A stretch of DNA of 64,000 nucleotides from Thermincola ferriacetica (GTDB lineage: Bacteria > Bacillota > Thermincolia > Thermincolales > Thermincolaceae), in contig NZ_LGTE01000001.1 of assembly GCF_001263415.1 (NCBI RefSeq), positions 186,001-250,000 on the forward strand. Direction: 5' to 3'. The notes under the pieces were generated by a model. That model was not told the origin of the DNA. It ran no database searches and saw nothing but the letters and a program-made list of their open reading frames with translations. Positions 8,432-36,431 of this stretch are shown here, in pieces. Each line of letters opens with the position of its first letter. Positions within the stretch are counted from its first letter, which is position 1. Both the position numbers and the translations under genes were made by a program.

Positions 8432-8437
8432 TGCGGT

Positions 8438-12241: not shown

Positions 12242-12263
12242 GTAAAGACGGGAGGTGATTAAA

Positions 12264-12815: not shown

Positions 12816-13080
12816 TGTTATGGGCATCGATGGAGCCCCGCAGGTTATGTAAAAGTTGACGGCTTTGAAAAGAAATGGTTTAGAAAATTCTAAAAAATTT
12901 TTAATCAAGAAGGAATTTGTAGAATTAAATAGAATAGGTATAAAAGGAATAAGGTATCAAGAAGATACCGTGTGATATTTAAAGTGACCGGTTACGACAA
13001 GACAGGCTCAATAGTCAGGATTTCAGGCCATGAAGGTCTTGCCCGAAACAGCGGGCAGATTTTCATGGTTTTTGTTTTGA
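12816..13080 (+). promoter_or_regulatory. Leader with CCATGAA hairpin, copy 4 (upstream of second ABC operon)
   Basis: CCATGAA (13028-13034) pairs with TTCATGG (13062-13068) around GCCCG/CGGGC (13041-13056), then TTTTTGTTTT, giving a good intrinsic terminator. A possible promoter lies at 12917-12945 (TTGTAG within TGTAGAATTAAATA, then TATAAA), matching copy 1 in both sequence and distance. A GGTATC/GATACC hairpin (about 12950-12970) lies between. The terminator precedes the methyltransferase start by about 45 bases, so premature termination would shut off the whole 13.1-19.5 kb operon. Confidence 0.6.
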
Positions 13081-13117
13081 AGGGGGGAATGTTTAAGGTG
13101 GAAAGGAGCTGACTTTT

Positions 13118-13690: not shown

Positions 13691-13730
13691 AAAACGTTTA
13701 GAAACCAATAGTTGAAAGGAGCGGGTTTAA

Positions 13731-14342: not shown

Positions 14343-14356
14343 AGGAGGTTTATCAG

Positions 14357-15979
14357 TTGTCAGCATGCGGATTATTTGTAAGGAAAAAATTATTTTTGCC
14401 GGTTTTGTTTGTTCTGATAACCGGTCTTATCTTTACCGGTTGCGGCAAAACAGCATCAACTGAAAAAGCGCAGACGGAAGGCATGCAAAGTGTCAGTTCA
14501 CAGGACAAAATACCTGTTTACACTGTAGCTGACCCTACCGGAGACTGGGGCTATCCCACGCCTTACAGCCATTACCAGCGGGGTCCTGGGTATGTCAGGA
14601 TGAGTTTTATCTTTGATACCCTTGTATGGAAAGACGAGAAGGGTTATATACCGGCCCTGGCTAAAAAATGGGAATATATCGAAGGAGAAAATGCCTATTA
14701 CTTTGAGCTCAATGAAAAGGCGAAGTGGCATGACGGACAGAAATTCACCGCCAGGGATGTTGCTTTCACCTTTGATTATACCAGGGAACACCCTTATAAC
14801 TGGGTTGACACTACCAAGATAGCCAGGGTTGAAATCATTGACGACTACAAGGTGAAGGTGTACCTCAAAGAAAAATATGCTCCTTTTTTAAATAATGTGG
14901 CCGGAACGCTGCCTATATTGCCGGAGCATATCTGGAAACAGGTCGAAAAACCTGAAGAGTTTCAGGGACCCGAGGCGGTAATAGGTACCGGACCTTTTAA
15001 ACTGGCGGATTACAACAAAGAACAGGGGACTTACCTGTACGAGGCCAACCGTGACTATTATTTGGGCAGTCCGCGAGTGGAAAAACTTAAATTTGTTAAA
15101 GTCAGTAATGAAATGGCGGCGGCCGCTTTGGAGCGGGGGGAGGTTAATTTTGCTCAGATTCCGCCTGACCTGAAAGATGAGGTTGTCAGCAAAGGATTTT
15201 CGGTAATAAAAATAAAATATGACTGGGCCCTGAAACTGTTATTCAACCACCGAAAGGAACCTTTTTCGGCCAGGGAATTCCGGCAGGCCTTGGCTTATGC
15301 CATTGACCGTGAACAACTAGTAAAAACAACCAAGAGAGGGTATGCCCTGGCGGGTAAACCGGGACTCCTTTCCCCTGATTCGGAATGGTACAACCCCAAT
15401 GTAAACAAATACGATTATAACCCGGAAAAAGTGAAGGAGCTTTTAAGTGGGCTTGGATATGAACTGAAAAACGGCTATTTCGTCAAAAACGGGCAGGAGT
15501 TGACCGTTGAGCTGCTGATCAGCCCCGACTACGAAAGAGACGGGCAGTTTATCAAACAGCAGTTGGAAAAAGTGGGAATCAAGGTTAATCTGAAAAGTCT
15601 GGAAGCCAAAACTCTTGACTCCATGGTGCAGGACTGGAAATTCGATATGGCCCTGTCCGGGCACGGAGGACTGAGGGGCGACGCCGAGATTTTAAACAAG
15701 GTGACCATAGGCAAAGGGGTTACCAGTATAAGATATACCGGCAGCAAGATTTTAACCGGTCTGCTGAAGGAACAGGTGGCGACGATGAATCCCGACCAAC
15801 GCAAGGCAAAAGTGGAAAAAATCCAGGAGCTTTATGCGGAGGAAATGCCTGGTCTAACCCTGTATTATCCGGACTGGTATTATGGCCACGACGGAAAAAT
15901 CAGGCTGTTTAACACAAAGAAAGGAATCGGTTTTGGAGTGCCCCTGCCGTTAAATAAATGGGCTTTTGTGCGCCGGTAG
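14357..15979 (+). CDS. ABC transporter substrate-binding lipoprotein, family 5 (third copy)
   Basis: The 540-residue protein begins at TTG 14357, 7 bases after AAAGGAGG; longer versions of the frame read back into the FmdE gene without a ribosome site. The signal peptide ends in lipobox FTGC (Cys29). The SBP_bac_5 signature EKAKWHDGQKFTARDVAFTF is near residue 120. It is clearly more divergent from the pair at 4.2-7.5 kb than those two are from one another. It should present ligand to the permeases at 16026 and 16988. Confidence 0.88.
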   Translation: MSACGLFVRKKLFLPVLFVLITGLIFTGCGKTASTEKAQTEGMQSVSSQDKIPVYTVADPTGDWGYPTPYSHYQRGPGYVRMSFIFDTLVWKDEKGYIPALAKKWEYIEGENAYYFELNEKAKWHDGQKFTARDVAFTFDYTREHPYNWVDTTKIARVEIIDDYKVKVYLKEKYAPFLNNVAGTLPILPEHIWKQVEKPEEFQGPEAVIGTGPFKLADYNKEQGTYLYEANRDYYLGSPRVEKLKFVKVSNEMAAAALERGEVNFAQIPPDLKDEVVSKGFSVIKIKYDWALKLLFNHRKEPFSAREFRQALAYAIDREQLVKTTKRGYALAGKPGLLSPDSEWYNPNVNKYDYNPEKVKELLSGLGYELKNGYFVKNGQELTVELLISPDYERDGQFIKQQLEKVGIKVNLKSLEAKTLDSMVQDWKFDMALSGHGGLRGDAEILNKVTIGKGVTSIRYTGSKILTGLLKEQVATMNPDQRKAKVEKIQELYAEEMPGLTLYYPDWYYGHDGKIRLFNTKKGIGFGVPLPLNKWAFVRR

Positions 15980-16025
15980 CGGCCGGGTGCAGGTAACGGT
16001 CGGACAGTAAAACCCGGAGGGGAAA

Positions 16026-17030
16026 ATGTTTAAGTTAAAAGATGTGGTCAACTATTTGGTTGCTTTTTTCATCATTCTGTCGTTAAATTTCCTTCTTCCC
16101 CGGTTGATGCCGGGAGACCCTTTAACAGCTATTTACGGAGAGGAGGCCATGATTCAGATGACCCCGGAGTTGAAGGCGCGGCTGGTCGAGCGGTTTTCCC
16201 TCGACCGGCCCCTCGCGGGGCAATTTGGAGCATATTTGTTGTCGCTGTTGAAAGGAGACTTAGGCTATTCCTATTTTTATAATGCTCCGGTAACCAAAGT
16301 TATATTGGGAGCCCTTCCCTGGACTTTCCTTTTGGTAGGAACAGCAATAAGCATTTCGACAATTATCGGTACCCTGTTGGGGATAGAATCGGGCTGGCGG
16401 CGCGGCCAAAAGATTGACCGGGCCTTGCTTGCCGGAACCATGTTTTTGGACGGTTTACCCGATTTTTTTCTCGGGATGGTTTTTTTGATTCTGTTCGGGG
16501 TGGTTTGGGAAGTTTTCCCCCTTAATGGGGCCATGACTCCCTATGCCGGTTATGAGGGGATAACTCTTGTAGTTGATGTATTAAAACACCTTGTATTGCC
16601 TGCCCTTTCACTGACTCTGGTAAACCTGACCGGTTCTTATCTCCTGGCCAGAAACAGTATGGTAACCACCCTTGGTGAGGCTTTTATCCTTACCGCCAGG
16701 GCCAAAGGCTTAAATGATCAGGTGGTAAGATACCGGCATGCCGGAAGAAATTCCCTGCTGCCGGTAATTACCCATACGGGTATGCAGGTCGGCAGGATGC
16801 TGACCGGGGCTCTGTTTATCGAAACGGTTTTTTCCTACCCTGGGCTGGGGCTCTTGATTCAAAAAGCCCTGCAGACCAGGGATTATCCCCTTTTGCAGGG
16901 AGTTTTCCTTGTGGTAACAGTTTTTGTTTTAACAGCCAATTTTTCTGTTGATATGTTATATAAAAATATTGACCCGAGGTTAAAATCATGCACATTAAAT
17001 ACTGGCAGGAGATTAAATCCAACAACCTAG
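16026..17030 (+). CDS. ABC transporter permease, DppB type (second system)
   Basis: A 334-residue permease with the DppB features LPRLMPGDPLTAIYG near residue 23, six predicted membrane segments, and the EAA loop ILTARAKGLNDQVVRYRHAG near residue 220. GGAGGGG lies 4-5 bases before the ATG. The last 43 bases overlap the next gene, an unusually long but in-family overlap for coupled permeases. Confidence 0.88.
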   Translation: MFKLKDVVNYLVAFFIILSLNFLLPRLMPGDPLTAIYGEEAMIQMTPELKARLVERFSLDRPLAGQFGAYLLSLLKGDLGYSYFYNAPVTKVILGALPWTFLLVGTAISISTIIGTLLGIESGWRRGQKIDRALLAGTMFLDGLPDFFLGMVFLILFGVVWEVFPLNGAMTPYAGYEGITLVVDVLKHLVLPALSLTLVNLTGSYLLARNSMVTTLGEAFILTARAKGLNDQVVRYRHAGRNSLLPVITHTGMQVGRMLTGALFIETVFSYPGLGLLIQKALQTRDYPLLQGVFLVVTVFVLTANFSVDMLYKNIDPRLKSCTLNTGRRLNPTT

Positions 17031-17833
17031 GCCGCCTTGGTCTGATTTTATTGACGCTGATAGTTGGCGCTGCTGTTTTTGCGCCTGTACTTGCTTCTTT
17101 TAATCCTACAGAACAGACAACGGCTTCTTTCCGGCCTCCTTCCAGGGAACACTGGCTGGGCACCAATGATGTCGGGCAGGACATTTTTGCGGGGCTGTTA
17201 TATGGCGCTCGAACTTCCCTGCTGGTAGCCGTTACCGTAGCTTTTTTCTCTACGGCCATAAGTAGTGTTGTCGGGGCGACGGCGGGGTTTCTGGGCGGGT
17301 TTTACGAAAAAGTGGCAATGCGGGTGGTAGATGCCCTGCTGGTAATTCCCCCAATGCTAGTGGTTATCATAATAGCCGCTTATATCCAGCCAAGCTTGTG
17401 GTGCCTGATACTGTTGCTATCATTGCTTACCTGGCCCGGCGGCGCCAGGATTATCAGGTCCCAGACCCTGGTTTTAAAAGAAAAAGCCCATGTCCGGGCT
17501 GCCCGAACTTTTGGAGCCGGGCCGTTGTATATATTAAGACGCCATATTATTCCTGACCTCGGCCCTATACTTGTGGCCAACCTGGTTCAGGGAGCGCGGC
17601 GGGCCGTTTTTATGGAGGCAGGACTTTCCTTTTTGGGCGTCACGGACCCAACGACCGTAAGTTGGGGGAAAATGCTGTATCATGCATTAAAATACGTTTA
17701 TCTTGATGTGTGGCAGTGGTGGCTTATACCGGTAGGGTTATCCCTGTCGGCGACTGTTATGGCTTTTACATTTATCGGTTATGCCCTGGAAGAGGCCATG
17801 GACCCGAGGTTGAGGAGGGGAAGGTATGCTTGA
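16988..17833 (+). CDS. ABC transporter permease, DppC type (second system)
   Basis: The 281-residue permease has an N-terminal membrane helix, the GTNDVGQDIFAGLLYGAR motif typical of DppC proteins near residue 57, and an EAA loop (VRAARTFGAGPLYILRRHI) near residue 168. It overlaps both neighbours (43 bases upstream, 8 bases downstream), and so is co-translated with them. Together with the preceding protein it would form the membrane channel. Confidence 0.88.
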   Translation: MHIKYWQEIKSNNLGRLGLILLTLIVGAAVFAPVLASFNPTEQTTASFRPPSREHWLGTNDVGQDIFAGLLYGARTSLLVAVTVAFFSTAISSVVGATAGFLGGFYEKVAMRVVDALLVIPPMLVVIIIAAYIQPSLWCLILLLSLLTWPGGARIIRSQTLVLKEKAHVRAARTFGAGPLYILRRHIIPDLGPILVANLVQGARRAVFMEAGLSFLGVTDPTTVSWGKMLYHALKYVYLDVWQWWLIPVGLSLSATVMAFTFIGYALEEAMDPRLRRGRYA

Positions 17834-19505
17834 AATCAGAAATTTATCGGTAAGTTTTGGCCAGACCAGGGTTTTGAACAACATCAACCTGACCCTGACC
17901 AGGGGTGAATGCCTTGCCCTGATAGGGGAATCAGGCACAGGAAAAACCACTTTGGGCCGCAGCATTATCGGTCTCGGCGATGGGGAATGTACCGGTGAAA
18001 TACTTTACCGGGGCCGTAACCTGCTTGGGTTGACTGAGAGGGAAATGTCTGAAATCAGATGGAATCAGATTGCCATGGTCTTTCAAAACGTAGAAAATGC
18101 CCTGAACCCTTTGTACACTATACTTGATCAGGTTATGGAGCCCATGGTGGAACACGGTTTGTATACCAGGCCGGAAGCAAAAATAAGAGCCGGGGAGTTA
18201 TTAAAAAAGGTCGGGATTTCCCCTGACTTTCATTTCTTCTACCCGCACCAGTTAAGCGGTGGACAGAAGCAACGGGCGCTTATTGCCATGGCTCTGGCTA
18301 ATGACCCGGAGCTGCTGATCATGGATGAGCCCACTTCTGCGCTGGACCCCATTACGAAGGCAGAGATTATTAAATTGTTGCAGCAAATTGGCCGGCAGCA
18401 CACGATGCTGGTGATTACCCATGATTTTTCCACGGCAGCCACACTGGCCCAAAAAACTGCTGTTTTATATGGGGGCAGAATAGTGGAACTGGGTCCTACG
18501 GGCCTAATCCTGTCCAGCCCTAAACACCCGTATACCAGAGGACTGTTGCGTGCCTATCCGAATATGACCACTACCAAGGACTTGCAGGGTATTCCCGGCC
18601 GGCTTTCGCGGCCGAACAGGGGTTGCCCCTTTGCGCCGCGGTGCACCCAGAGTATGCCCGCATGCAGTCAGACATGCCCTGAGTTAATAGAAAACGGCGG
18701 GCGTATGGTGGCCTGTCATTTGGGGGGAATAGTTCCGCTGCTGGAAGTAAAAAATGTAGGTAAGTCTTTTGGCCGTCTGCGCGCAGTGGAAAAAATAAAT
18801 TTTACCCTGTATGAGGGGGAAACGGTAGCCCTTGTTGGCGAAAGCGGATCGGGAAAAACGACGTTGGCCCGGATTATAACAGGCAGCAGTGAACCGTCAG
18901 AGGGGCTAATTTTTTTAAACGGCCGGCCGGTTGAGCGCCGCGGTAAAGATTTTTACCGGCAGGTACAAATGATTTACCAGAACCCCGCCGAATCCATAAG
19001 TCACCGGCAAACGGTCCTGGAAGCTGTGAGTGAACCGTTGGAGATACATGAAGTAGGTGACCGAATGGAGCGCAGGGAAAAGGTAAAACGCGTGCTGGAA
19101 GAAGTGGAGTTACCCGCTACGGAGGAGTTCCTGCTGACCTACCCGCACCACTTAAGCGGCGGCGAAGCTCAGCGGGTGGCTATTGCCAGGGCATTGATAC
19201 TGGCTCCCAAATTACTCATAGCCGATGAGCCGACTTCGGCCCTGGATCCCAGTGTCCAGGCCAAGATACTGAAACTGCTCCTTAATCTCCAGGAAAAAAA
19301 GGGGCTAAGTTTGCTGTTTATTACCCATGATATTGCCCTGGCCCGGAAGGTGAGCGACCGGATTATTGTTCTCAGGGAGGGCAGGGTCGTGGAAGAAGGG
19401 CCTTCCCACCGTGTCACTTCTATGCCCAAACACCCGTATACCAGGAGCCTGTTGGCAGCCGCTCCCTCATTGGATGTTAAGGGAATGGTTTGCTTTGCAG
19501 TATAA
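17826..19505 (+). CDS. Fused double ABC ATPase (DppD-DppF type)
   Basis: One 559-residue chain carries both ATPase domains that are separate genes in the first operon. Domain 1 has GESGTGKT, LSGGQKQR and LLIMDEP and ends with the cysteine cluster GCPFAPRCTQSMPAC near residue 265. Domain 2 begins near residue 302 (LLEVKNVGKSFG) with GESGSGKT, LSGGEAQR and LLIADEP. Fusion fixes the 1:1 ratio of the two ATPases. The ATG at 17826 overlaps the permease gene by 8 bases. The operon ends here. Confidence 0.9.
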   Translation: MLEIRNLSVSFGQTRVLNNINLTLTRGECLALIGESGTGKTTLGRSIIGLGDGECTGEILYRGRNLLGLTEREMSEIRWNQIAMVFQNVENALNPLYTILDQVMEPMVEHGLYTRPEAKIRAGELLKKVGISPDFHFFYPHQLSGGQKQRALIAMALANDPELLIMDEPTSALDPITKAEIIKLLQQIGRQHTMLVITHDFSTAATLAQKTAVLYGGRIVELGPTGLILSSPKHPYTRGLLRAYPNMTTTKDLQGIPGRLSRPNRGCPFAPRCTQSMPACSQTCPELIENGGRMVACHLGGIVPLLEVKNVGKSFGRLRAVEKINFTLYEGETVALVGESGSGKTTLARIITGSSEPSEGLIFLNGRPVERRGKDFYRQVQMIYQNPAESISHRQTVLEAVSEPLEIHEVGDRMERREKVKRVLEEVELPATEEFLLTYPHHLSGGEAQRVAIARALILAPKLLIADEPTSALDPSVQAKILKLLLNLQEKKGLSLLFITHDIALARKVSDRIIVLREGRVVEEGPSHRVTSMPKHPYTRSLLAAAPSLDVKGMVCFAV

Positions 19506-24807: not shown

Positions 24808-24837
24808 TGGACAATGCGGACAATTTCATGCTATTAT
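24808..24837 (+). promoter_or_regulatory. Promoter of the corrinoid-capture operon
   Basis: TGGACA (24808-24813) and TATTAT (24832-24837) with an 18-base spacer. The 22-base block starting TTCTGGACAATGCGGAC is identical in the second leader at 36173, where the -10 is a perfect TATAAT. It is 20 bases upstream of the aptamer. Confidence 0.65.
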
Positions 24838-25071: not shown

Positions 25072-25108
25072 TGCCCTCTGCATCGTCGTGCGGAGGGCAT
25101 GTTGTTTT
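25072..25108 (+). terminator. Terminator of cobalamin riboswitch 1
   Basis: An 11-bp stem (25072-25082 with 25089-25099; TGCCCTCTGCA/TGCGGAGGGCA) is followed by TGTTGTTTTT. It sits between the riboswitch and the second conserved element. Confidence 0.8.
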
Positions 25109-25125
25109 TAAAAAGAAATATACAG

Positions 25126-25348
25126 GAATAGGTGTTTTACTCCGAGGGGTAAAACTTAAATGATTACGACCGTGTTGATTGCTTTAGACCGTGGAATGAA
25201 TGTAAATTCAGACAGATTTACTTACATTCATGATGACCCGGCCTTAAAGCAGACGGCCTATTCTAATACACCGCAGGCTGTAGGGAGGTGATTAGATTAG
25301 GCCGTTTTTATTATCACTTCCCTGGTCTGGATAGACCGGGGATTTTTT
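25126..25348 (+). promoter_or_regulatory. Unrecognised conserved structured RNA element, copy 1, with terminators
   Basis: GAATAGG (25126-25132) pairs with CCTATTC (25257-25263) to close a domain that contains the hairpin GTTTTACTC-CGAG-GGGTAAAAC, the conserved TTAAATGAT, a long variable hairpin (about 25194-25229) and the conserved CATGATGACCCGG (25229-25241). The 3' strand of the closing stem also lies in a terminator-like hairpin (25255-25272 with 25287-25303, then GTTTTT), so the two are mutually exclusive. GGGAGGTGAT (25283-25292) can alternatively pair with ATCACTTCCC (25313-25322). A final terminator occupies 25320-25341 plus TTTTTT. It is not a cobalamin aptamer; I cannot match it to a known class. 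Confidence 0.65.
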
Positions 25349-25386: not shown

Positions 25387-28300
25387 ATGGGAAAATATAA
25401 GTTAAAATTACGCCCGATTGCTCTGTGGGTAGCTATCTGTTTTCTTTTAAGCAATGTGATTACTATGAGCGTAATAAACCAGGCGGCAGCCGCGGAACAA
25501 ACGGCTCTCTATTCGGCCGGTGAGATGGCCGGTAAGGCCGTAAAATTCATTAACCACAAATATAAATCCGGAGAAAGAATTGACGGGTATACCGCCTATG
25601 TGCTGACTTTGGCCGGGGAGGACCTGGCAGGTGAAAAGTGGACCAATAACGGCAAGACATTAAAAAGTGAAATAGAAAACCTGGCCGACCAGTTGGGGGA
25701 CAGCAACAGTTTAATTTCATACATTATAGCCACTCAGAATACCGACGGCAGTTTTGGTCCTTATGCCAACGAGTACGGTACCAAAGTGCCCTTACAGGCT
25801 TTGGCAATGGTTAAAAATGACCTTACGGTCGGTACAGATGTCTATGGTCAGGTGCATGAGGCAATTGCCAAAGCCGTCAATTATTACAAGAACAAATACC
25901 GGAACGGAAATATGGCCTATAATGTTAACGGTTGGGATTTTGATTACCGGTGCGTGGAAGCGCTGGTCGCAGCCGGTGAGGACATTTCCACCGGTGAGTG
26001 GGTGTATAACGGGACCTCGCTTAAGGATGTCATAATAACGTCTGCCAACGCCGCTGCAGATAATGCTGCCGATTTGGATGCTGTACGCCTGGCCAAAGAA
26101 CTTATCGCTTTAAACGCTGTTGATCCCTATTCGGTACATATTGATACCCTGGCTGCTGCCATTAGAAGTAAAGCATCAACTGTTGCTGACCAAGTTTACT
26201 TTGGCAACAATATTTATGACCATGTAACTGTCTTGACGGCCCTGGGGAAGACCGGTAAACTTGCCGGAATTGACCAGGCCAAAGCCCTTGAGTACCTTAA
26301 TAATTTCAAACATGCTCACAGCAATAGTTGGGGCAGCCCGGCCGGGACGGCCTGGGGCGGATTTTCTCCCGAGGAAGCCGACCTGACGGCGCAGGTTATC
26401 ACCGCCCTCATCTATTTTGACGGGGCTGACACGCCGGATAGTCCTGTTTACAGTGCCATTCAGGACGGCTTGACCTATCTTATGGACATCCAGGATGCCG
26501 ATACGGCAGCCATACCCTCCCAGTGGGACAATACCTTTTCCACCGCCGAGACTTTAATTGCCTTAAAATCTCTTGGAAAAACGTACAATGACTATGCCGG
26601 TAATGATTCCCTTTGGATTAAAAAGTCCCGGACCAAAACCATCGCCCAGTGTTTACTGGCCGTAAATATGTGGAAAGATTCAGCCCGCCGGGACCGGCTG
26701 GCCAACCTCCTGATTAACAGGCAAAGGGCGGAAGAACCCGGTAAAGGTTCCTTTGATAACAGCGTTTACAGCGATATGTGGGCCTATATCGCCCTGGGCG
26801 AAGCGGGTAAGATCAACAGCGGAAGTTTTCATACCGAAAATGCCAAAGCATATATTTTATCCAAACAGAGCGTGGAGCAAGATGTTTACGGATCCTGGGG
26901 AGAGAAGTTCGGGGATACATACTATCCTGATGTTTTGTCCACCGCCCAGGCCATCCGGGCGCTCACTTACCTGCCTGACGCCGCGGTGGATGCCGGGATT
27001 CAGGCGGCTGTTGACAGGGGTGTTGCTTATCTGAAAGGGCTCCAGCAAGACGATGGCGGTGTTTACGTGTCGCCATGGGATGACCCTGCCGTGGATAACT
27101 CTGAACTTATTATAACCCTGCGCCAGCTCGGTAAAGACCCTGAAAGTACGGAGTGGACCAGGAACGTTGACGGCAAAAGGGTTAATCCGGTCGCATATCT
27201 GATGACGAAAACCATGAACGAAGACGGCAGTTTTGGGACATCGAGAAATGTTTTTGGAGCTGCCGAGGCCCTTTATGCATATGTTCTCCAGAGTGCTGCC
27301 GGTACAGAGGCCAGTGGCAGCAATAACAACAGCGCCAACAACAACAGCAGCAGTAGCAATAGCAATAGCAATCCGTCTGTTCCGTCTTCTCCAAATGAAT
27401 ACAGTGTCAGTATTGCGGTGGTTGGTAAAAACGGTGAACGTCTCTATGGCCCAGGCAGTGTCACGGTGAGCAAAAACGGCGAGTGGGGCCTGACGGCTCT
27501 GGGCGCTCTTCATGCCACCGGACTCAGCTATACAGAGGACAAGGGTTTTGTCAAAAGTATTGCCGGTCAGGCCAACAGCGGAGTGAACGGGTGGATGTAC
27601 AGTGTCAATAATTCAGTACCCAGCGTGCTGGCCTGCGATAAAACCGTCAATGAAGGTGATCGTATCATCTGGTGGTACAGTACTGAGATGAACTCCAACG
27701 GTCCTTCCTGGGATAGCCTGTTTAAGAGTTCAACAACAGGACAGCCCCAGAATACTTCATTTGCAACACAGATTTCCGGTGAAGTTGGGACAGCGCTGGA
27801 TAAACTGGCTGAAACGCTGGGGCTAAAAGGGGATACCGGAGAGTTAGGGCCCCTGAGTGAATCAGCCAAAGCCGTAGTTGTGGTGAACAGCGACAAACCC
27901 ATAAGCCTGGCCGAAATAATTGCCCTGAAAAAGAGACTGGCGCAAAATACGGTGGAACTGTCCAAGAAAGCAGAGGCCAATCAAGGAACTACCATAACCG
28001 ATACATTAGGCGAGGTGGGGATGAGTGTTCCGGCCAAAGCGCTTGACCGTGATACGGAAATAACTGTTAAAGAGATTACCATACCAGGCGCTGGCGGAAT
28101 CAACGGTGCAGAGGCGCGTACTCCCGCAGGTTACCGGCCGGTATCGTCTGTTTATCAATTCGGACCCGATGGGACCAGTTTTAAGGTTCCGGCGACATTG
28201 GTTCTGAAAGTGGCAATCCCGCGCCTTACCAAACCGGAGAACCTGGCCCTGGCCTGGTACGACAAGGTTAACGGCGCATGGGTCGCTATCCCCGCGGTAG

Positions 28301-28917
28301 TGGATGCGGCAAACGGGCTGGTTGTGGCGAAAATTCGCCATTTTTCCGATTATGCCGTATTTGCCAAAGAGACAAAAAGGTCTTTTGCCGATGTAACTTC
28401 CACTTCTTATGACTGGGCGCGCCACAGTATTGAAACACTGGCGGGGGCCGGGATAGTCAATGGAGTTGATAAAGTCCGTTTTGCGCCGGCCCGCCCAATT
28501 ACCAGGGCAGAATTGGTCAGCCTGCTGGTCAAAGCGCTGGCTCTGCCGAAAAAAACGGAGGATAAAGCGGTCTTTAACGATGTACCGGCCGGCGCCTGGT
28601 ATGCTCAGGACATAGCCGCGGCTGTCCGGGCCGGGCTGATTAAGGGATTTGGCGACGGTACCTGCCGTCCGGACCGTCCTGTTACGCGCGAGGAACTGGC
28701 TGCCATTTTAGCGCAGGCGCTTAACCTGCAGACTTCTGGGAAGGAGTTACATTTCAACGACCAACGGGATATTTCGTCCTGGGCCAAAACAGGTGTGGCT
28801 GCTGCGGCGGCGCACGGCCTGGTAAAAGGTTTCCCCAACGGGGCATTCAGGCCTGCTGCTCCGGCGAGCAGGGCGGAATGCGCGGTAATGATTTATCGTA
28901 TGCTTGAATCGGTGTAG
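25387..28917 (+). CDS. SLH-anchored surface protein with alpha-toroid and DUF4430 (transcobalamin-like) domains
   Basis: This 1176-residue secreted protein has a signal peptide (about residues 1-35). Residues 40-635 form repeats of the prenyltransferase/terpenoid-cyclase alpha-alpha toroid type (QNTDGSFGPYANEYGT, QQDDGGVYVSPWDD, NEDGSFGTSRNVFGAAEALY). An Asn/Ser linker (638-669) leads to a DUF4430 domain (about 670-765, ending WMYSVN...DRIIWWYST). A beta-rich ZU5-like segment (875-995) and three SLH domains (998-1176) for cell-wall anchoring follow. A helical toroid plus a DUF4430-like beta domain is the plan of animal intrinsic factor and transcobalamin. With the cobalamin riboswitch upstream, corrinoid capture at the surface is the best inference. 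Confidence 0.85.
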   Translation: MGKYKLKLRPIALWVAICFLLSNVITMSVINQAAAAEQTALYSAGEMAGKAVKFINHKYKSGERIDGYTAYVLTLAGEDLAGEKWTNNGKTLKSEIENLADQLGDSNSLISYIIATQNTDGSFGPYANEYGTKVPLQALAMVKNDLTVGTDVYGQVHEAIAKAVNYYKNKYRNGNMAYNVNGWDFDYRCVEALVAAGEDISTGEWVYNGTSLKDVIITSANAAADNAADLDAVRLAKELIALNAVDPYSVHIDTLAAAIRSKASTVADQVYFGNNIYDHVTVLTALGKTGKLAGIDQAKALEYLNNFKHAHSNSWGSPAGTAWGGFSPEEADLTAQVITALIYFDGADTPDSPVYSAIQDGLTYLMDIQDADTAAIPSQWDNTFSTAETLIALKSLGKTYNDYAGNDSLWIKKSRTKTIAQCLLAVNMWKDSARRDRLANLLINRQRAEEPGKGSFDNSVYSDMWAYIALGEAGKINSGSFHTENAKAYILSKQSVEQDVYGSWGEKFGDTYYPDVLSTAQAIRALTYLPDAAVDAGIQAAVDRGVAYLKGLQQDDGGVYVSPWDDPAVDNSELIITLRQLGKDPESTEWTRNVDGKRVNPVAYLMTKTMNEDGSFGTSRNVFGAAEALYAYVLQSAAGTEASGSNNNSANNNSSSSNSNSNPSVPSSPNEYSVSIAVVGKNGERLYGPGSVTVSKNGEWGLTALGALHATGLSYTEDKGFVKSIAGQANSGVNGWMYSVNNSVPSVLACDKTVNEGDRIIWWYSTEMNSNGPSWDSLFKSSTTGQPQNTSFATQISGEVGTALDKLAETLGLKGDTGELGPLSESAKAVVVVNSDKPISLAEIIALKKRLAQNTVELSKKAEANQGTTITDTLGEVGMSVPAKALDRDTEITVKEITIPGAGGINGAEARTPAGYRPVSSVYQFGPDGTSFKVPATLVLKVAIPRLTKPENLALAWYDKVNGAWVAIPAVVDAANGLVVAKIRHFSDYAVFAKETKRSFADVTSTSYDWARHSIETLAGAGIVNGVDKVRFAPARPITRAELVSLLVKALALPKKTEDKAVFNDVPAGAWYAQDIAAAVRAGLIKGFGDGTCRPDRPVTREELAAILAQALNLQTSGKELHFNDQRDISSWAKTGVAAAAAHGLVKGFPNGAFRPAAPASRAECAVMIYRMLESV

Positions 28918-28938
28918 GGGTTATGTGAATGCGGAAAA

Positions 28939-28964
28939 TCTCGTTTACTCCTGGGTAAACGAGA
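28939..28964 (+). other. Intercistronic hairpin
   Basis: TCTCGTTTAC pairs with GTAAACGAGA over 10 bp with a 6-base loop, between the large surface-protein gene and the next gene. There is no T-run, so it is more likely an mRNA-stability or differential-expression stem than a terminator. Confidence 0.5.
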
Positions 28965-29001
28965 GTAGAGAGCAGAATCAACTTCTCAGGAGGGGTAGAC
29001 G

Positions 29002-30243
29002 GTGAAAAGTAGAGGGCTTTATTTACTGGGAATCCTGGTTATTTTACTGGGGTTGTTGGGGCCGATTGTTTATTCCGGTAGGCTTACCGGGCGGCAGGGG
29101 CCGTCAGATCCTGGGCAAGCTTTATCCGGCGGTATTAAAGACGGCAGCGCTTCATGTGATGCCGGCGGTGCCCGCAACGCCAGGATTATGCCCTATGATA
29201 CCGGTTCGGGCGTTGTTAATGTTGATTCCGGTGATGTAAATGTTGGTTCCGGCGTTAAAAAAGCCGGGACAAAAAATACTGCCGGTTCGGCTGCGGAAAA
29301 AGGGCAGGTAACTGGCGCCGACTTGTCGGGCAAATTAACTATAAAGAAAGTACCGGAGAGTAATCCGCCGAAAAACGAGGCAGGCGTTCAACTATGGGTG
29401 ACGGAGGATTTCGGCCGCCGTTCAATGTATGCGGAAACGGTCGGTTTCCGCCCCGGGGATGCGGTGCTGGACATCTTAAACCAAAATCTGAACATAGAAA
29501 CAGCCAATGGGGGAACTTTTGTTAAATCCATCAACGGTGTGGCTTCCGGCTATACAGGTAAATCGGGCGGCAAGCGCACGAAAAAGGACTGGTTTTATTG
29601 GGTGAACGGGGTTATGGCTTCTGTCGGCGCCGACCAGTATATCCCTGGCCCGGGAGATGTCATCTGGTGGGATTACCATGATTGGAGCGGGACCATGTTT
29701 ATTCCGGCAGTGATTGGGGCATACCCGGAGCCGTTTCTGCGCGGTTACAGCGGGAAAAACAAGGGGGCAGTAATCTTCTATGCCGACGGTTATGAAGACC
29801 AGGCGCAAAAAATAAAACGCGGACTGGAAAAATTTAGGGTAACGCCGGTAAGCGTGGCGCCTTTTAATGGGGAAGGAATCTCAAAAAGAAACGGACCGGC
29901 TATGGTGGTGGGTCCCTGGACTGTTCTAAAGCAGAGCGAAATACTGAACGGAATGAACGAAAGGGGTATAAAAAGCGGCCTATATGTTAATTTTTCAGAT
30001 GATCGGTTTAACCTGCTGACACCTTCCGGTCAAATTGCCGGAGCCTGCGGGAAGGGCAGCGGCGCAATTGTGGCGGTTGGTGTAGGTAGCGGAGACGCAG
30101 GCGTGTTATGGTTGGTAACAGGGGTTGACCGCCAGGGTCTGGAAAATGCCGTGACTGTTTTGAGTGAACGCCCACAGGAAATAAAGTATTGCTTTGGCGC
30201 CGCCGTTGATTCGGGGAAGGTAATTCCTTTACCCATACAATAA
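29002..30243 (+). CDS. Membrane-anchored DUF4430 protein, probable corrinoid-binding
   Basis: A 413-residue protein starting at GTG 29002 behind AGGAGGGG. Residues 5-24 are one hydrophobic segment that serves as signal or anchor. A Gly/Val/Asp-rich linker runs to about residue 105, then a DUF4430 domain (about 115-232) with VLDILNQNLNIETANG and DWFYWVNGVMASVGADQY, both typical of the transcobalamin-like C-terminal fold. The last 170 residues are a separate alpha/beta domain that I do not recognise (NKGAVIFYADGYEDQAQKIK). Gene order suggests that it receives ligand from the large surface protein. Confidence 0.8.
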   Translation: MKSRGLYLLGILVILLGLLGPIVYSGRLTGRQGPSDPGQALSGGIKDGSASCDAGGARNARIMPYDTGSGVVNVDSGDVNVGSGVKKAGTKNTAGSAAEKGQVTGADLSGKLTIKKVPESNPPKNEAGVQLWVTEDFGRRSMYAETVGFRPGDAVLDILNQNLNIETANGGTFVKSINGVASGYTGKSGGKRTKKDWFYWVNGVMASVGADQYIPGPGDVIWWDYHDWSGTMFIPAVIGAYPEPFLRGYSGKNKGAVIFYADGYEDQAQKIKRGLEKFRVTPVSVAPFNGEGISKRNGPAMVVGPWTVLKQSEILNGMNERGIKSGLYVNFSDDRFNLLTPSGQIAGACGKGSGAIVAVGVGSGDAGVLWLVTGVDRQGLENAVTVLSERPQEIKYCFGAAVDSGKVIPLPIQ

Positions 30244-30265
30244 AATCCAAAGGAGGTCAAAGGGT

Positions 30266-31630
30266 ATGAAAAAGAAGTGGTTCTGTATGGCGCTGGTCTT
30301 GATTCTGCTGGCCGGCATTTTGTCTCCCATGGCAGCATATGCTGAGCCTGCTGCAGATAAAGGCCCAATTAAAACGGCAATGGATAAGGCCGCTGATTGG
30401 TTATGGCAAAAAGAGAAAAAAGAGGGCGGCCTATTGCCATGGAGTTATATTGCTTTGGCTGCGGCGGGGAGGGATTTGGGGAATACATCCGTGGGCCTGG
30501 CATGTGAAAAATTGTTTGCGAATCTTAAAGCAGGAGAGACAAACGATTACAGTACCCTTGTTTTAACCCTGTTTGCCGCAGGCCAGGACCCTTATAACTA
30601 CAAAGGGCAAAACTTGGTGCAGAAACTCCGGGATGCCCGGCTCCCGAGCGGCAAGTATGCCGATAATGTGATTAACGGGGGAGAAGACCTGGTTAATGCC
30701 CATATATGGGCTGTCTTGGCTTTACACACGGCCGGCGCGAGCAGTAAAGAACAAGCAAAAGCGCTGCAGTGGCTGGTTAATCAACAACATGCCGACGGGT
30801 CTTTTTATTGGGATGCAGCCGACAGGGATACTGCCGATGTGGATTCAACCGGCATGGCTCTAATGGCTCTGGGCGCGCTGGGCGAAAAAAAGGACAGCCC
30901 GGTGATGCAAAAAGCCGTGGCTTACTTGAGAAGTGCGCAAAAAGATAGCGGCGGGTTCAATTCCTGGGGTACGGAAAACCCTGAGTCATGTAGCGTGGTT
31001 ATCCAGGGATTGACTGCAGTCGGAGTTGACCCCACCGGACAGGAATGGTTGAAGTCCGGCGGAAACCCGGTAACCGCCCTCTTGAGTTTTCAACTGCCTG
31101 ATGGTTCTTTTAGTCATCTAAAAGGCGGCGTCGCCAGTGAAATGGCTACCCAGCAGGCTTTAATGGCATTGGCAGACGTTTATTATGGGGATACCTTGTT
31201 TAACAGGCTCCGCTCACAGCCTTCCGCTGCCTTGCCGGAGCGGACCGTACGCTTTGAAGCCGGCAAAAAACAATATGTTGTTACTATTGGCGGGCAGCCG
31301 CAGAAGCATGAAACCGATGCCGCGCCTTTTACTCAAAACGGCCGCATTTATGTACCGGTGCGCTATCTGGCTTATGCCCTGGGGATACCTGAGAGTGGGG
31401 TTAACTGGGACAGTAAGTCCCGTACTATTACATTATCACTGAACGGCGCCTGCGTTAGGCTGGCCGTTGGCAGCCTTCTAATTTACACAAACAATGCCCC
31501 GCGTCAGATGGATGTGGCGCCGGTGCTGCGCCATGGCCGTACTTACCTTCCTGCCCGCTATGTAGCGGAGTCCTTTGGGTTCCGGGTAGACTGGGACCAG
31601 GCAGCCCAGGCCGTAATCATAACAAAATAA
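30266..31630 (+). CDS. Secreted alpha-toroid protein with copper amine oxidase N-terminal-type stalk domain
   Basis: The 454-residue protein has a signal peptide cleaved after about AAYAEP (residue 28). Residues 35-315 contain prenyltransferase/squalene-cyclase-like repeats (NQQHADGSFYWDAADRDTAD, QKDSGGFNSWGTENPESCSV, QLPDGSFSHLKGG), related to the toroid of the 1176-residue protein. The C-terminal part (about 325-454) is a CuAO_N1/stalk domain with two repeats, each with RxYVPVRYLAYALG or RTYLPARYVAESFG. These domains attach proteins to the cell surface. It keeps the toroid half of the two-domain plan while the preceding gene keeps the DUF4430 half. Confidence 0.8.
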   Translation: MKKKWFCMALVLILLAGILSPMAAYAEPAADKGPIKTAMDKAADWLWQKEKKEGGLLPWSYIALAAAGRDLGNTSVGLACEKLFANLKAGETNDYSTLVLTLFAAGQDPYNYKGQNLVQKLRDARLPSGKYADNVINGGEDLVNAHIWAVLALHTAGASSKEQAKALQWLVNQQHADGSFYWDAADRDTADVDSTGMALMALGALGEKKDSPVMQKAVAYLRSAQKDSGGFNSWGTENPESCSVVIQGLTAVGVDPTGQEWLKSGGNPVTALLSFQLPDGSFSHLKGGVASEMATQQALMALADVYYGDTLFNRLRSQPSAALPERTVRFEAGKKQYVVTIGGQPQKHETDAAPFTQNGRIYVPVRYLAYALGIPESGVNWDSKSRTITLSLNGACVRLAVGSLLIYTNNAPRQMDVAPVLRHGRTYLPARYVAESFGFRVDWDQAAQAVIITK

Positions 31631-31673
31631 GTAAGGTATTTACGATTAAAATTTTAGCAGAGGTGGTTAATCC

Positions 31674-32603
31674 GTGTTTGACCAGTTGTTTTACCGGGAA
31701 AAAGGGCTTTTTTTGCAGAGTTTGCATTCGGTGGCCGCGCTAACTTATATAGCAGTATTATTTCTCCTGGCCTTTGTCTTTTCACACCCTTTCTACCTGG
31801 CTGGGCTCCTTCTCGTTACTGCGCTGGCCATTTGGGCTGCCGATGGATTAGAAGCATGGGAATCCTATTTAAAAGTTAGTTTGGGTATGATCGTCTTGAT
31901 TATTATTGTCAATCCTCTTATGGTCCATGCCGGGGAAACCGTCCTTTGGTACGGCCCCAGGATTCCTGTTCTGGGGCGTTTGGTAATAACGCTGGAAGCC
32001 ATCTGCTACGGGGCGGCGATGAGCGTGCGGCTGTTGGCTGTGATAAGCGTTTTCTGCCTATATAATCTCATTATGCATCCCGATAAAACATTACAATTAT
32101 TTTCCCGCCTTGCTCATAAGTCCGGTTTGATTATATCCCTGGCTACCAGAATGTTTCCTGCTATGGTCAGAGATGTAAATAGTATCAGTGAAGTACAGCG
32201 GATGCGGGGAGTAGATTTTGCTTCGGGGAATTTGAAGGAAAAGATAAAAAAATACGCGTCCTTGCTCAATATCTTGCTCTTATCTTCTCTAGAGGGTTCT
32301 TTACAAATCGCGGAGGCCATGCAGGCAAGGGCTTTCGGCAGCGGGCCCCGTTCCAGCTACCGGCGGGAATTGTTCCGGCCGCGGGATTTGCTTTGCCTGT
32401 CAGGATGTGGTTTAGCGTTAACTTCCGGGCTATACGGTTTCTTCAAAGGTTATGGCACATATGAATATTATCCGCAACTGGGATATCTGATTGACGGAAG
32501 TATGAACTTGTTAGTTTTGGCCGTCTTGTTGATAGGTTTACTTGTTCCGGTTGCGTTAAGCTGGGGGTGGAAACATTGCCGCTATTTGAAATCAAAAATC
32601 TGA
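31674..32603 (+). CDS. ECF transporter T component (EcfT/CbiQ family)
   Basis: The 309-residue membrane protein has five to six hydrophobic segments and the cytoplasmic coupling helices with EVQRMRGVDFAS and MQARAFGSG (the two Ala-Arg-Gly-type motifs that contact the ATPases). It starts at GTG 31674 behind GAGGTGG. It would join the S component at 34287 to the double ATPase in a group I or dedicated ECF transporter. It overlaps the ATPase gene by 37 bases. Confidence 0.88.
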   Translation: MFDQLFYREKGLFLQSLHSVAALTYIAVLFLLAFVFSHPFYLAGLLLVTALAIWAADGLEAWESYLKVSLGMIVLIIIVNPLMVHAGETVLWYGPRIPVLGRLVITLEAICYGAAMSVRLLAVISVFCLYNLIMHPDKTLQLFSRLAHKSGLIISLATRMFPAMVRDVNSISEVQRMRGVDFASGNLKEKIKKYASLLNILLLSSLEGSLQIAEAMQARAFGSGPRSSYRRELFRPRDLLCLSGCGLALTSGLYGFFKGYGTYEYYPQLGYLIDGSMNLLVLAVLLIGLLVPVALSWGWKHCRYLKSKI

Positions 32604-34294
32604 TTTACTATTACCCTGACATTGAAAAGCCGGCTCTAAACAACATTAACCTGATTATTGAAGAAGGAGAGTTCCTGCTTGTAGCTGGCGGTTCAGGCTC
32701 GGGCAAGTCTTCCCTGGCGCGGGCGCTGGCCGGATTAATACCTGATTTTTACGGCGGAAAATTCGGGGGCAAGGTTTTGTTTCAAGGTAGGAACTTGCGT
32801 GAAATAGACCGGCGTAGTTTGGCCAGGGAAGTCGGTATTGTTTTTCAGGACCCCGAGAAACAGTTGGTAATGACCAGTGTGGAAGCTGAAATAGCTTTTG
32901 GTCTGGAAAATCTATCGCTGCCGCAGGATGAAATGTTCCGCCGGGTAGCCGAAGTGATGAGTTTTCTTGATTTATCGGCAGTGAAAGATGAGTTTACCGG
33001 CAATCTGTCGGGGGGTCAAAAACAGAGACTGGCTCTGGCTTCTGTCCTGGCTATGCAGCCGAAGGTACTAATCTTGGATGAGCCCACCTCACAGTTGGAT
33101 CCGGTTGCTGCCGAGGAACTGCTTAATTTAGTTAAACGGTTAAATGAAGAAATGGGGTTAACGATTATTTTAATCGAACAACGCCTGGAAAGGTGTTTTC
33201 ACGTGGCTGACCGGTTGATAATTATGGAATGCGGGGAAATATTAAAGGGCGGCCCGGCGGACGAGGTGGCCCGGTGGGAAGTAGAGAAATCCATTCCTTT
33301 TATCCCGCCGGTGGCAAAATTTTTTGCTTCTCTCGGCGCTTCCACCATACCGCTTACTGTTAAAGAGGGACGTAAGGCGTTAAAACCGTATTATTCAATG
33401 CCGGGGGCCCGGGCCAACCGGACAGCGTCTGCGCCCTTACCAAATAAGAGAGACTTAAAGGTTAGAAGCAAACCGGGACAAGAAAACAGAGAAAATACCA
33501 TGGTTGAACTGAAAAATGTCTGGTTTACCTATCCGGGTGGCCGGGAGGCGCTGCGCAACGTCAACTGCCGCATTGAACAAAAGGAATTTGTAGTTATTCT
33601 GGGAGAGAATGCAGCCGGAAAATCTACTTTACTTAAACATGTGGCAGGATTGCTGAAACCGGGGCGCGGCAGCGTGTCGGTAATGGGCAGGGAGACCGGA
33701 AAAACACCGTTAGCGGAGTTGGCCCGGTATGTGGGCTACCTATCCCAAAACCCAAACGACTACCTGTTTCAGGATACAGTGGAGGAAGAACTGCTGTTTA
33801 CTCTCAAGAATTTTGGGCTGTCAGATTTTGGGCGTATCGAGAATCTTTTAGATAAACTGAATTTATCTCACTATCGTACCGCCAACCCGAGGGATTTGAG
33901 CAGCGGTGAACGGCAGCGGGTTGCCCTGGCGGCAGTATTGGCATCGCGGCCGCTACTGCTCTTGCTGGATGAGCCTACCCGCGGCATTGACTATCGCCTG
34001 AAAAATGAATTGGGTGATTTGCTCTCGGAACTCAGGGAAGAAGGGATTACAATAATTATGGTTACGCATGATATCGAGTTTGCGGCGGAATACGCCGATC
34101 GCGTGATTTTGATGTTCGATGGCCGGGTAGTCAATACAGGGTCAAAACGCGAAGTTTTGGGAGGCTCGGTTTTTTATTCGCCCCAAATGAGCAGGCTGTT
34201 CAGAGGGACTGTTGACGGCATCCTCACAGTGGCCGAGGCTATTGAGGAAATGCGGGAATTGCAGGGCATGGTGCGGGATGGTACTCATGCGTGA
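32567..34294 (+). CDS. ECF transporter double ATPase (fused A components)
   Basis: A 575-residue protein with two CbiO/EcfA-type ABC domains. Domain 1: GGSGSGKSSLARAL, LSGGQKQRLALAS, VLILDEPTSQLDPV. Domain 2 (from about residue 311): GENAAGKST, LSSGERQRVALAA, LLLLDEPTRGID; the signature is LSSGE instead of LSGGQ. A basic linker joins them. It starts at GTG 32567 inside the T-component gene. It supplies energy for the corrinoid ECF transporter. Confidence 0.9.
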   Translation: METLPLFEIKNLIYYYPDIEKPALNNINLIIEEGEFLLVAGGSGSGKSSLARALAGLIPDFYGGKFGGKVLFQGRNLREIDRRSLAREVGIVFQDPEKQLVMTSVEAEIAFGLENLSLPQDEMFRRVAEVMSFLDLSAVKDEFTGNLSGGQKQRLALASVLAMQPKVLILDEPTSQLDPVAAEELLNLVKRLNEEMGLTIILIEQRLERCFHVADRLIIMECGEILKGGPADEVARWEVEKSIPFIPPVAKFFASLGASTIPLTVKEGRKALKPYYSMPGARANRTASAPLPNKRDLKVRSKPGQENRENTMVELKNVWFTYPGGREALRNVNCRIEQKEFVVILGENAAGKSTLLKHVAGLLKPGRGSVSVMGRETGKTPLAELARYVGYLSQNPNDYLFQDTVEEELLFTLKNFGLSDFGRIENLLDKLNLSHYRTANPRDLSSGERQRVALAAVLASRPLLLLLDEPTRGIDYRLKNELGDLLSELREEGITIIMVTHDIEFAAEYADRVILMFDGRVVNTGSKREVLGGSVFYSPQMSRLFRGTVDGILTVAEAIEEMRELQGMVRDGTHA

Positions 34295-35036
34295 AAGTGG
34301 GTTGAGATGGCGCTTCCCTTTATTTCTGTCAGTAGTGGCGGTGTTATTGATACTGAGTATACGGGGCGACAATTCTGTCTCCGGGCAGAATTGGGGCTTA
34401 TTATCCGCTGAAATTGTAGCTGCGGCATTGGCGTTTTTATACTGGGACTTTGAAAAAAGTACTGCTTCATCCCGTGAAATAGCGGATATTGCCGTACTCG
34501 GCGCCATAGCCGCAGTGGGAAGGGTGCCTTTTGCGGTGCTGCCCAATGTTCAGCCGACTACGTTTATAGTTATAATCTCTGGTTTTGTGTTTGGGCCGCG
34601 GGCAGGGTTTATGACCGGCTCAACCGCCGCGATTGTGGCTAACCTTTTTCTGGGCCAGGGGCCGTGGACGCCGTGGCAGATGTTTGCATGGGGTCTGGCC
34701 GGAGCTACCGCGGGTGTGCTCAAGAGTTTCTATCCCCGTATAGGCCGCCGGGCCATGGTAATCTTTCATATTGCCTGGGGTTATTTGTTTGGTTGGATCA
34801 TGAATCTGTGGTTCTGGACGGCCTTTATTTACCCGCTGAACTGGCAGTCATTTTTGGCCGCTTATGCCGCCAGTTTCTGGTTTGACACCTTCCATGCCTT
34901 GGGGAATGCCGTCTTTTATTTGCTTTTTGGGGCCGGTTTTACCAGGATTTTAACCCGTTTCCGCAGAAAGCTGGAGGCGAGTTATTTGCCTGAGACTCCG
35001 GCTCAACAAAAAAACAAGGCGCAAGGTGATATGTGA
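34287..35036 (+). CDS. ECF transporter S component, probable cobalamin/corrinoid-specific (CbrT-like)
   Basis: A 249-residue membrane protein. The ATG at 34287 overlaps the ATPase stop (ATGCGTGA). Conserved stretches GRVPFAVLPNVQPTTFIVII and GFMTGSTAAIVANLFLGQGP are those of the S-component family that includes cobalamin-specific CbrT/CblT. The last residues are hydrophilic. Location between the ECF energising genes and cbiZ, under a cobalamin riboswitch, supports uptake of cobalamin or cobinamide. Confidence 0.83.
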   Translation: MRESGLRWRFPLFLSVVAVLLILSIRGDNSVSGQNWGLLSAEIVAAALAFLYWDFEKSTASSREIADIAVLGAIAAVGRVPFAVLPNVQPTTFIVIISGFVFGPRAGFMTGSTAAIVANLFLGQGPWTPWQMFAWGLAGATAGVLKSFYPRIGRRAMVIFHIAWGYLFGWIMNLWFWTAFIYPLNWQSFLAAYAASFWFDTFHALGNAVFYLLFGAGFTRILTRFRRKLEASYLPETPAQQKNKAQGDM

Positions 35037-36121
35037 TGCTAATTTATGAAACGAAAAGCGGGGAAAAAGTATACCGGATGGATAATACGATAATTGTTTT
35101 TTTCCCCGGCCCGCGCCTGGTTATAAGTACGTCCAGGATTAACGGCGGTATTCGGGAAGATCTTGAGGCAGTGTTTAATCACTGCCTGCCTCCGGAAAAG
35201 TGTCTTGTGAAAAATCTGCCCAATGGTAGCGCAGAACAGTATTTGGAACAATTGGCCGCTAAACTGCATTTACCCCCCAAACGTACCGCTGGTCTATTGA
35301 CTGCTGCCAGAATGGAAAATATAGCCATAAAGGCAGCGGGTTTTCAACAGTTAGAGGTTACAGCCCTGGTAACTGCCGGAGTGGATGTTAACGGGGGCCG
35401 GGCCGGCGACCCGGCGGCCTACCACGAGGCGGACGGGCAGTATACTGTCCTGGGCGGGACCATAAATATTATACTTATCATAAATGGCAACCTGTCGCCT
35501 TATACTTTGGTGCGAACTGTTGTGACGGCTACTGAAGCGAAAACAGCCGCTTTACAGGAACTCATGGCGCCCAGCCGTTACTCCCGGGGTATTGCCACCG
35601 GTTCCGGCACTGACCAGATTATTGTGGTATCTAATCCATCAAGCCTATACAGGTATACAGATGCCGGAAAACACTCAAAATTAGGAGAGTTAATCGGGTC
35701 AGCCGTTAAAGATGCTGTCAAGGAAGCCTTGTATAAGGAGACCGGCCTCGGGCCGGAACGCCAGCGGAATTTCCTGGCGCGTTGGGCGAGATACGGGATT
35801 AAGGATGAGGATTTCTGGCAGGAAGCTCGGCGGGATGGGGCCATTCTGAGCCGGGAAATGTTCATCGAAAGACTAAACCGGTTGGCTGGGGAAGAACGGT
35901 TAGTAACTTTGGCTGCGGCTTTGATACATCTGCTGGACGAGTATACATGGGGATTGTTGTCTGCCGGGTTGGTAATGGAAATTGGAGAAAAGCTTATTCA
36001 ATCGTTCGCCGGGAAAGTCTCGACCTGTAATAGGGTACATGATCCCCCTGACTATTTGAGCCGGTTGTTTATCGAATTGACGATAAAACTGTTGGATAGC
36101 AGTGCTGAGTTTAATTGTTAA
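35033..36121 (+). CDS. cbiZ: Adenosylcobinamide amidohydrolase CbiZ
   Basis: CbiZ hydrolyses the amide bond that links the nucleotide loop aminopropanol to the corrin ring, giving adenosylcobyric acid, so foreign corrinoids can be rebuilt with the cell's own lower ligand. The signature LVTAGVDVNGGRAGDPAAY is near residue 122, with GTINIILIINGNL and RTVVTATEAKTAALQEL following. The chain (362 residues) is longer than archaeal CbiZ by a C-terminal helical region from about residue 235. GTG 35033 and ATG 35036 are both possible starts; both overlap the S-component stop. It is the last gene of the operon. Confidence 0.9.
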   Translation: MMLIYETKSGEKVYRMDNTIIVFFPGPRLVISTSRINGGIREDLEAVFNHCLPPEKCLVKNLPNGSAEQYLEQLAAKLHLPPKRTAGLLTAARMENIAIKAAGFQQLEVTALVTAGVDVNGGRAGDPAAYHEADGQYTVLGGTINIILIINGNLSPYTLVRTVVTATEAKTAALQELMAPSRYSRGIATGSGTDQIIVVSNPSSLYRYTDAGKHSKLGELIGSAVKDAVKEALYKETGLGPERQRNFLARWARYGIKDEDFWQEARRDGAILSREMFIERLNRLAGEERLVTLAAALIHLLDEYTWGLLSAGLVMEIGEKLIQSFAGKVSTCNRVHDPPDYLSRLFIELTIKLLDSSAEFNC

Positions 36122-36172: not shown

Positions 36173-36205
36173 TTCTGGACAATGCGGACAATTTTATGTT
36201 ATAAT
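36173..36205 (+). promoter_or_regulatory. Promoter of the cobalt transport operon
   Basis: TGGACA (36176-36181) and a perfect TATAAT (36200-36205), spacer 18. The upstream block TTCTGGACAATGCGGACAAT is identical to the promoter of the corrinoid-capture operon at 24805. Confidence 0.75.
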
Positions 36206-36226
36206 AACCTCAAACAGAATATTGTG

Positions 36227-36387
36227 GAATAAGTGGTCCTTATTAGAAGGACATAATAGGGAAGCCGGTTAGAATCCGGCGCGGTCCCGCCACTGTAGGA
36301 GGAAATCGTTCTGCATTATGCCACTGGGCGGTAGCCTGGGAAGGCGCAGAAACGGTGATGATCTCGAGCCAGGAAACCTGCTTATTC
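36227..36387 (+). promoter_or_regulatory. Cobalamin riboswitch, copy 2
   Basis: Nearly identical to copy 1: closing stem GAATAAG/CTTATTC (36227-36233, 36381-36387), GGGAAGCCGGTTAGAATCCG, GCGCGGTCCCGCCACTGTAG and the B12 box GAGCCAGGAAACCTGC. Differences lie mainly in the variable peripheral stem. It should reduce cobalt import and cobK expression when cobalamin is sufficient. Confidence 0.95.
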
Positions 36388-36431
36388 TGAACTCACCGGT
36401 AGTACCCACGATGGATGGGGAGGTTGAGAGT

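Follow-up and report, generated by a model that had tools for sequence, protein, structure and literature searches.

A cobalamin riboswitch-controlled operon of Thermincola ferriacetica with transcobalamin-like surface proteins and a predicted role in corrinoid scavenging

Little is known about how Gram-positive bacteria capture scarce corrinoids outside the membrane. In a 64,000-nucleotide stretch of the Thermincola ferriacetica genome (the window; contig NZ_LGTE01000001.1, positions 186,001 to 250,000), we examined a seven-gene operon that lies behind a cobalamin riboswitch and encodes transcobalamin-like proteins, an ECF importer and CbiZ. The operon very probably serves the cobalamin-repressed scavenging and remodelling of corrinoids, which its surface proteins are predicted to bind. 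With the riboswitch evidence and an S component of the CbrT type, the ligand can be assigned much more firmly, and the analysis names concrete candidate proteins, including some from cultured Moorella and Thermosediminibacter strains.

Operon structure and cobalamin control

The operon occupies positions 25387–36121 of the forward strand. A preliminary description had proposed a riboswitch followed by seven genes; all of these parts were recovered by Rfam and Pfam searches, and every ORF lies where that description had placed it. The gaps between successive genes, from gene 1 to gene 7, are 84, 22, 43, −37, −83 and −4 nt, consistent with a single transcript.

The leader begins with a promoter-like site on the forward strand (24808–24837, TGGACA-18-TATTAT with TG ahead of the second hexamer, a consensus match only), which starts 38 nt upstream of the aptamer. 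The aptamer itself (RF00174, 24846–25029, forward strand) matched the Rfam model over its full length (1–189) with 140.2 bits and an E value of 2.6e-35. Directly 3′ of it on the same strand is a hairpin of 12 pairs resembling an intrinsic terminator (25072–25099), which is likely the expression platform, and a second terminator-like hairpin of 10 pairs followed by a T run is present at 25319–25342 (forward strand). The position of both hairpins between the aptamer and gene 1 suggests that the operon is controlled through transcription termination. With a same-strand RF00174 element and its likely expression platform directly upstream, the operon belongs to the cobalamin riboswitch regulon.

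A second RF00174 riboswitch (36214–36399, forward strand), preceded by a near-identical promoter-like site (36176–36205), lies ahead of the neighbouring unit, a cobalt uptake and biosynthesis operon running from CbiM to CbiJ. Near the cobalt genes, the window also contains peptide/nickel-type ABC importers (4243–19505; SBP_bac_5 confirmed for 14300–15976), accompanied by FmdE-like genes (12255–14342). Genes similar in size to these importers follow the operon in two related loci (L039 and L040, 1–3908).

To place the operon among relatives, neighbourhoods were collected from the genomes containing DUF4430 (20 of the 61 searched, comprising the window's own genome and its relatives) and from 29 loci found in a scan of named genomes. 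The scan used alignment A2, the nine-sequence alignment A1 being too diverse. A recurring block was found, consisting of a toroid–DUF4430 gene with or without SLH repeats, a membrane DUF4430 gene, and the T, fused A–A and S components of an ECF importer. Its hosts include Moorella, Pelotomaculum, Desulfallas, Thermovorax, Thermosediminibacter, Tepidanaerobacteraceae and Syntrophomonadaceae. The preliminary description had proposed a search for the same gene order under cobalamin riboswitches in other Clostridia, and such cases exist: Moorella stamsii (L086) has the exact order of the window, CbiZ included. Operon counts were made by phmmer with the window's proteins, which divergent members can escape (the DUF4430 genes of L043, L048 and L058 were left unlabelled).

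The first toroid or DUF4430 gene has a same-strand cobalamin riboswitch no more than 440 nt upstream in 43 of 54 units, or 43 of the 46 testable ones, all from Clostridia and with a few identical or very close species entered twice (L061/L080, L044/L090). Of the other 11 units, eight are cut upstream by a contig end, no riboswitch was detected in two (L059 and L089), and L051 has a weak one ahead of its T gene. The expectation by chance is about 6e-4 per random gene start, based on the eight riboswitches in the 3.18-Mb genome of T. ferriacetica, and the association is therefore not due to chance. Homologous operons without a link to cobalamin control, which according to the preliminary description would have spoken against its proposal, are thus the exception, and the proposed riboswitch-controlled acquisition of corrinoids is supported.

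The distribution of riboswitches over whole genomes points the same way. Four genomes (G015, G023, G035 and G039) contain a single cobalamin riboswitch each, in every case at the toroid/DUF4430 operon, and in the nine of 20 genomes that lack CbiD, 12 of the 17 cobalamin riboswitches are located at these operons. Such cobalamin control is the strongest evidence that the operon's job is corrinoid supply.

Several variants of the arrangement were observed. Tandem cobalamin riboswitches precede gene 1 in L039, L040, L069, L074 and L082, and in Desulforudis/Desulfopertinax-type genomes (L080, L083 and L061) gene 1 stands alone with its own riboswitch, apart from an ECF operon. A contig binned as Deltaproteobacteria (L091, 9704–16270) carries a clostridial-type operon with an SLH protein, reflecting either misbinning or transfer.

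Domain structure and fold of the surface proteins

Gene 1 (25387–28917, forward strand) encodes a putative surface capture protein with a signal peptide, read off the sequence, an alpha/alpha-toroid region (25498–27309), a DUF4430 domain (27493–27681) and three SLH repeats (28381–28902), all on the forward strand. Pfam matches were obtained for SLH (5e-37), DUF4430 (1.5e-13) and the SQHop_cyclase_C toroid (3e-7), the first bearing out the anchoring at the cell surface proposed earlier. The DUF4430 domains of genes 1 and 2 scored 51.4 and 63.9 bits, respectively, against a cut-off of 23.8. The toroid region comprises about 24 helices, with room for two toroids, and its conserved half is the one adjoining DUF4430. 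BLASTP self-comparison of the region revealed no duplicated half, so two toroids are suggested by the helix count and by shorter homologs.

A structure model of gene 1 (residues 38–783, built with 23 sequences; mean pLDDT 90.4, pTM 0.76) showed the helices followed by a disordered linker of about 28 residues and a beta-grasp domain, in which a helix (667–673, model numbering) precedes two strands (678–681 and 684–688). A beta-hairpin after the helix typifies the transcobalamin-like clade of the SLBB superfamily, defined by Burroughs, Balaji, Iyer and Aravind in 2007 (PMC1796856), and according to the present analysis this is the clade that DUF4430 matches. In a Foldseek search of the PDB, ranks 1 to 8 were transcobalamin or haptocorrin (E about 1e-6, 404–441 columns), with squalene cyclases ranking below, in agreement with the earlier proposal of transcobalamin-like parts. 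When the DUF4430 profile A6 was run against PDB sequences, no matches were obtained, and the relation to transcobalamin is thus visible by fold only. The toroid fold also occurs in terpene cyclases and alpha-macroglobulins, which counts against the corrinoid interpretation.

The match to transcobalamin holds for the domains of gene 1 singly and not for one rigid body. The DUF4430 domain alone superposed on the transcobalamin beta domain with a TM score of 0.66–0.69, and the full-length superposition was poor (TM 0.35–0.39 normalized by target, rmsd 12–14 Å), which indicates that the domain placement differs or, with the linker disordered, is left unfixed by the model. Human transcobalamin consists of two flexibly linked domains that associate only with cobalamin, as do its domains when made separately (PMC5599065). 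An apo model of gene 1 therefore need not show a closed cavity, and the poor superposition is no refutation of the relation.

In two other loci (L050, 11386–18990, and L052, 13310–17899), genes for giant SLH proteins (2534 and 1529 residues) follow the toroid–DUF4430 genes under cobalamin riboswitches; the one in L050 bears FIVAR and Ig-like domains.

Gene 2 (29002–30243, forward strand) encodes an N-terminal membrane anchor, a DUF4430 domain (29455–29679, forward strand; Pfam E = 1.8e-17) and an additional C-terminal domain. Its DUF4430 domain superposed on the transcobalamin beta domain in the PDB with a TM score of 0.67–0.68. A hydrophobic N-terminal anchor was found in 41 of 41 homologs, about a third of them with a lipobox by a simple pattern, which locates this DUF4430 domain on the membrane, close to the importer. 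The C-terminal alpha/beta domain (29767–30240, forward strand), found in roughly one in four homologs, is without a Pfam family; in the gene 2 model (pLDDT 57.5) it showed a tentative fold likeness to BcsB, GH115 and an S-layer anchoring domain of Methanococcus voltae, and it may perhaps be a wall- or glycan-binding part.

Gene 3 (30266–31630, forward strand) encodes a secreted toroid (SQHop_cyclase_C, 4e-14) with a Cu_amine_oxidN1 stalk domain (1e-31).

Importer, CbiZ and the cobamide metabolism of the host

The four remaining genes, also on the forward strand, encode a T component of the CbiQ family (31674–32603; CbiQ, 2e-13), a double ATPase of two fused CbiO-like domains (32567–34294; ABC_tran, 6e-61), a CbrT-like S component with an inferred start codon (34278–35036; ECF_trnsprt, 1e-11) and CbiZ (35033–36121). 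An ECF importer is thus encoded as a whole, with T, two A domains and S together. A profile of 16 S components had a single PDB relative, 6fnp_A (E = 1.4e-20), taken as the S component from its chain length. The 6FNP structure is that of ECF-CbrT, for which import of cobalamin and cobinamide has been shown (PMC5997447), and the importer is accordingly predicted to take up corrinoids, as had been proposed.

The family assignment of CbiZ as an adenosylcobinamide amidohydrolase holds (PF01955, 211 bits, E = 1.7e-62). CbiZ hydrolyses the amide bond beside the aminopropanol linker and starts remodelling (PMC7733943). Its gene adjoins the operon in only three of about 40 loci, and in one locus (L056) it lies ahead of the operon.

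A search of the window's genome found CbiD, E, T, L, F, G, H and J, together with CobU, CbiP, CbiB, CbiA, CobA, CobD, CobT and a CobC-type phosphatase, each group of genes behind a cobalamin riboswitch. CobS lies beside a pair of adjacent ThiC paralogs, behind a cobalamin riboswitch and together with an NCS1-type transporter (L068, C33:10000–22000 of the same genome, 3678–7142, reverse strand). The two ThiC paralogs are presumably bzaA/bzaB-like, which suggests anaerobic synthesis of a benzimidazole lower ligand. Judged from the genes found, the cobamide pathway appears near-complete, and the host probably makes its own cobamide, so that scavenging would not be obligatory. Together with the presence of CbiZ, the near-complete pathway makes salvage and remodelling beside synthesis the likely role of the operon, and not obligate uptake.

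Ligand, mechanism and relation to known systems

We considered whether genes 2 and 3 form a split transcobalamin that holds the corrinoid between two polypeptides, with gene 1 as a second, fused copy. The division of toroid and DUF4430 between genes 3 and 2 is real at the level of Pfam domains, the ligand-dependent assembly of separately made human transcobalamin domains provides a precedent (PMC5599065), and two loci (L049 and L060) have separate membrane DUF4430 and toroid genes in the transport operon and the fused gene in another unit. This arrangement is nonetheless unlikely: a toroid-only gene occurs in 22 of 40 operons with T and A genes and is absent from the other 18, where the membrane DUF4430 protein is generally kept. 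The two genes therefore need not co-occur, and no sampled genome has the split pair alone. One apparent natural case, L053 (G035), was rejected after a sub-threshold DUF4430 domain (17.1 bits, Pfam) was found after its toroid, and it was recounted as a fused gene in the tallies. The toroid-only protein also varies in position and in anchor, which can be of the CuAO type, SLH or none recognised. The earlier suggestion that genes 2 and 3 repeat the halves of gene 1 thus describes the domain layout and not a conserved core; with the toroid-only gene optional and the membrane DUF4430 gene nearly constant, the conserved unit consists of gene 1, gene 2 and the ECF importer.

The remaining alternatives concern the ligand and the activity of the surface proteins. 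They could be merely co-regulated with the importer and bind a lower-ligand base, a cobalt complex or a surface glycan. DUF4430 does occur outside cobamide contexts, including in Lactococcus lactis, to our knowledge not a cobamide user, and the domain alone is therefore not diagnostic. The host carries a synthesis pathway, and the authors of the 2007 study allowed for another metabolite in B12-synthesising archaea (PMC1796856). Set against this are the CbrT-like S component, the placement of most cobalamin riboswitches of CbiD-lacking genomes at these operons, and the cobalamin carriers as best fold matches, so that we consider a non-corrinoid ligand quite improbable; a lower-ligand base as the only ligand was likewise judged unlikely. 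The sequence matches of the toroids to squalene-hopene cyclases and prenyltransferases would also allow secreted cyclase- or hydrolase-type enzymes whose substrates are lipids or parts of the cell wall. Genes 1 and 3 lack the DxDD catalytic motif, and a terpene-cyclase-like enzyme agrees poorly with the DUF4430 fusion, the riboswitch and the ECF neighbours, which leaves this reading with hardly any probability.

For corrinoid scavenging and remodelling, we propose the following mechanism. At low cobamide levels inside the cell, the riboswitch would let transcription pass the leader. Gene 1, held at the wall by its SLH repeats, would trap cobamides or cobinamide between toroid and DUF4430, and gene 2, with its second DUF4430 domain at the membrane, would probably take the corrinoid and deliver it to the importer dedicated to the operon (T, fused A–A and S), at its CbrT-like S component. 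Gene 3, as an extra secreted toroid, may be accessory. Inside the cell, CbiZ is expected to cut the nucleotide-loop arm, and the host would rebuild the cobamide with its own lower ligand. That the importer is fed by such a relay, from S-layer trap to membrane beta-grasp protein to S component, is a tentative proposal, for which the odds are somewhat less than even. ECF importers are not known to depend on external binding proteins, so that the relay, if true, would represent a mode of operation new to these importers and would give the intrinsic factor system a counterpart in bacteria.

The corrinoid-scavenging interpretation follows Burroughs et al. in the main and is strengthened here by the riboswitch control, the specificity of the transporter and the fold search. 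They described bacterial toroid–SLBB fusions, as in Desulfotomaculum, predicted that such Gram-positive surface proteins scavenge B12 or a precursor, and proposed that the module was transferred from bacteria to animals (PMC1796856). No experimental test of these proposals was found in the mostly open-access literature searched. The Thermincola operon resembles their system in the toroid N-terminal to DUF4430, the second, paralogous gene in the same operon and the presence of CbiO and CbiQ. It differs in having riboswitch control, a CbiZ gene and an S component of the CbrT type; the 2007 paper nowhere uses the terms riboswitch, CbiZ or cobinamide, and riboswitch control across Clostridia, the S component, CbiZ and the fold search are additions to it. 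The genomes described then were usually without B12 synthesis (PMC1796856), whereas CbiD is present in this host and in 10 of the 19 other genomes (11 of 20).

Like animal intrinsic factor, transcobalamin and haptocorrin, gene 1 has an alpha/alpha-toroid followed by a beta-grasp domain on a flexible linker, but it has a longer toroid region, an SLH anchor and a place in a bacterial operon with an importer. The S component is of the same family as that of ECF-CbrT from Lactobacillus delbrueckii, which uses a shared, common ECF module (PMC5997447), whereas the Thermincola operon has a dedicated T component and fused A–A, with putative extracellular binding proteins alongside. BtuG and BtuH of Bacteroides are similar by description, capturing B12 at the surface ahead of a transporter, but are surface lipoproteins of Gram-negative hosts and serve an outer-membrane transporter (PMC6143338, PMC8941943).
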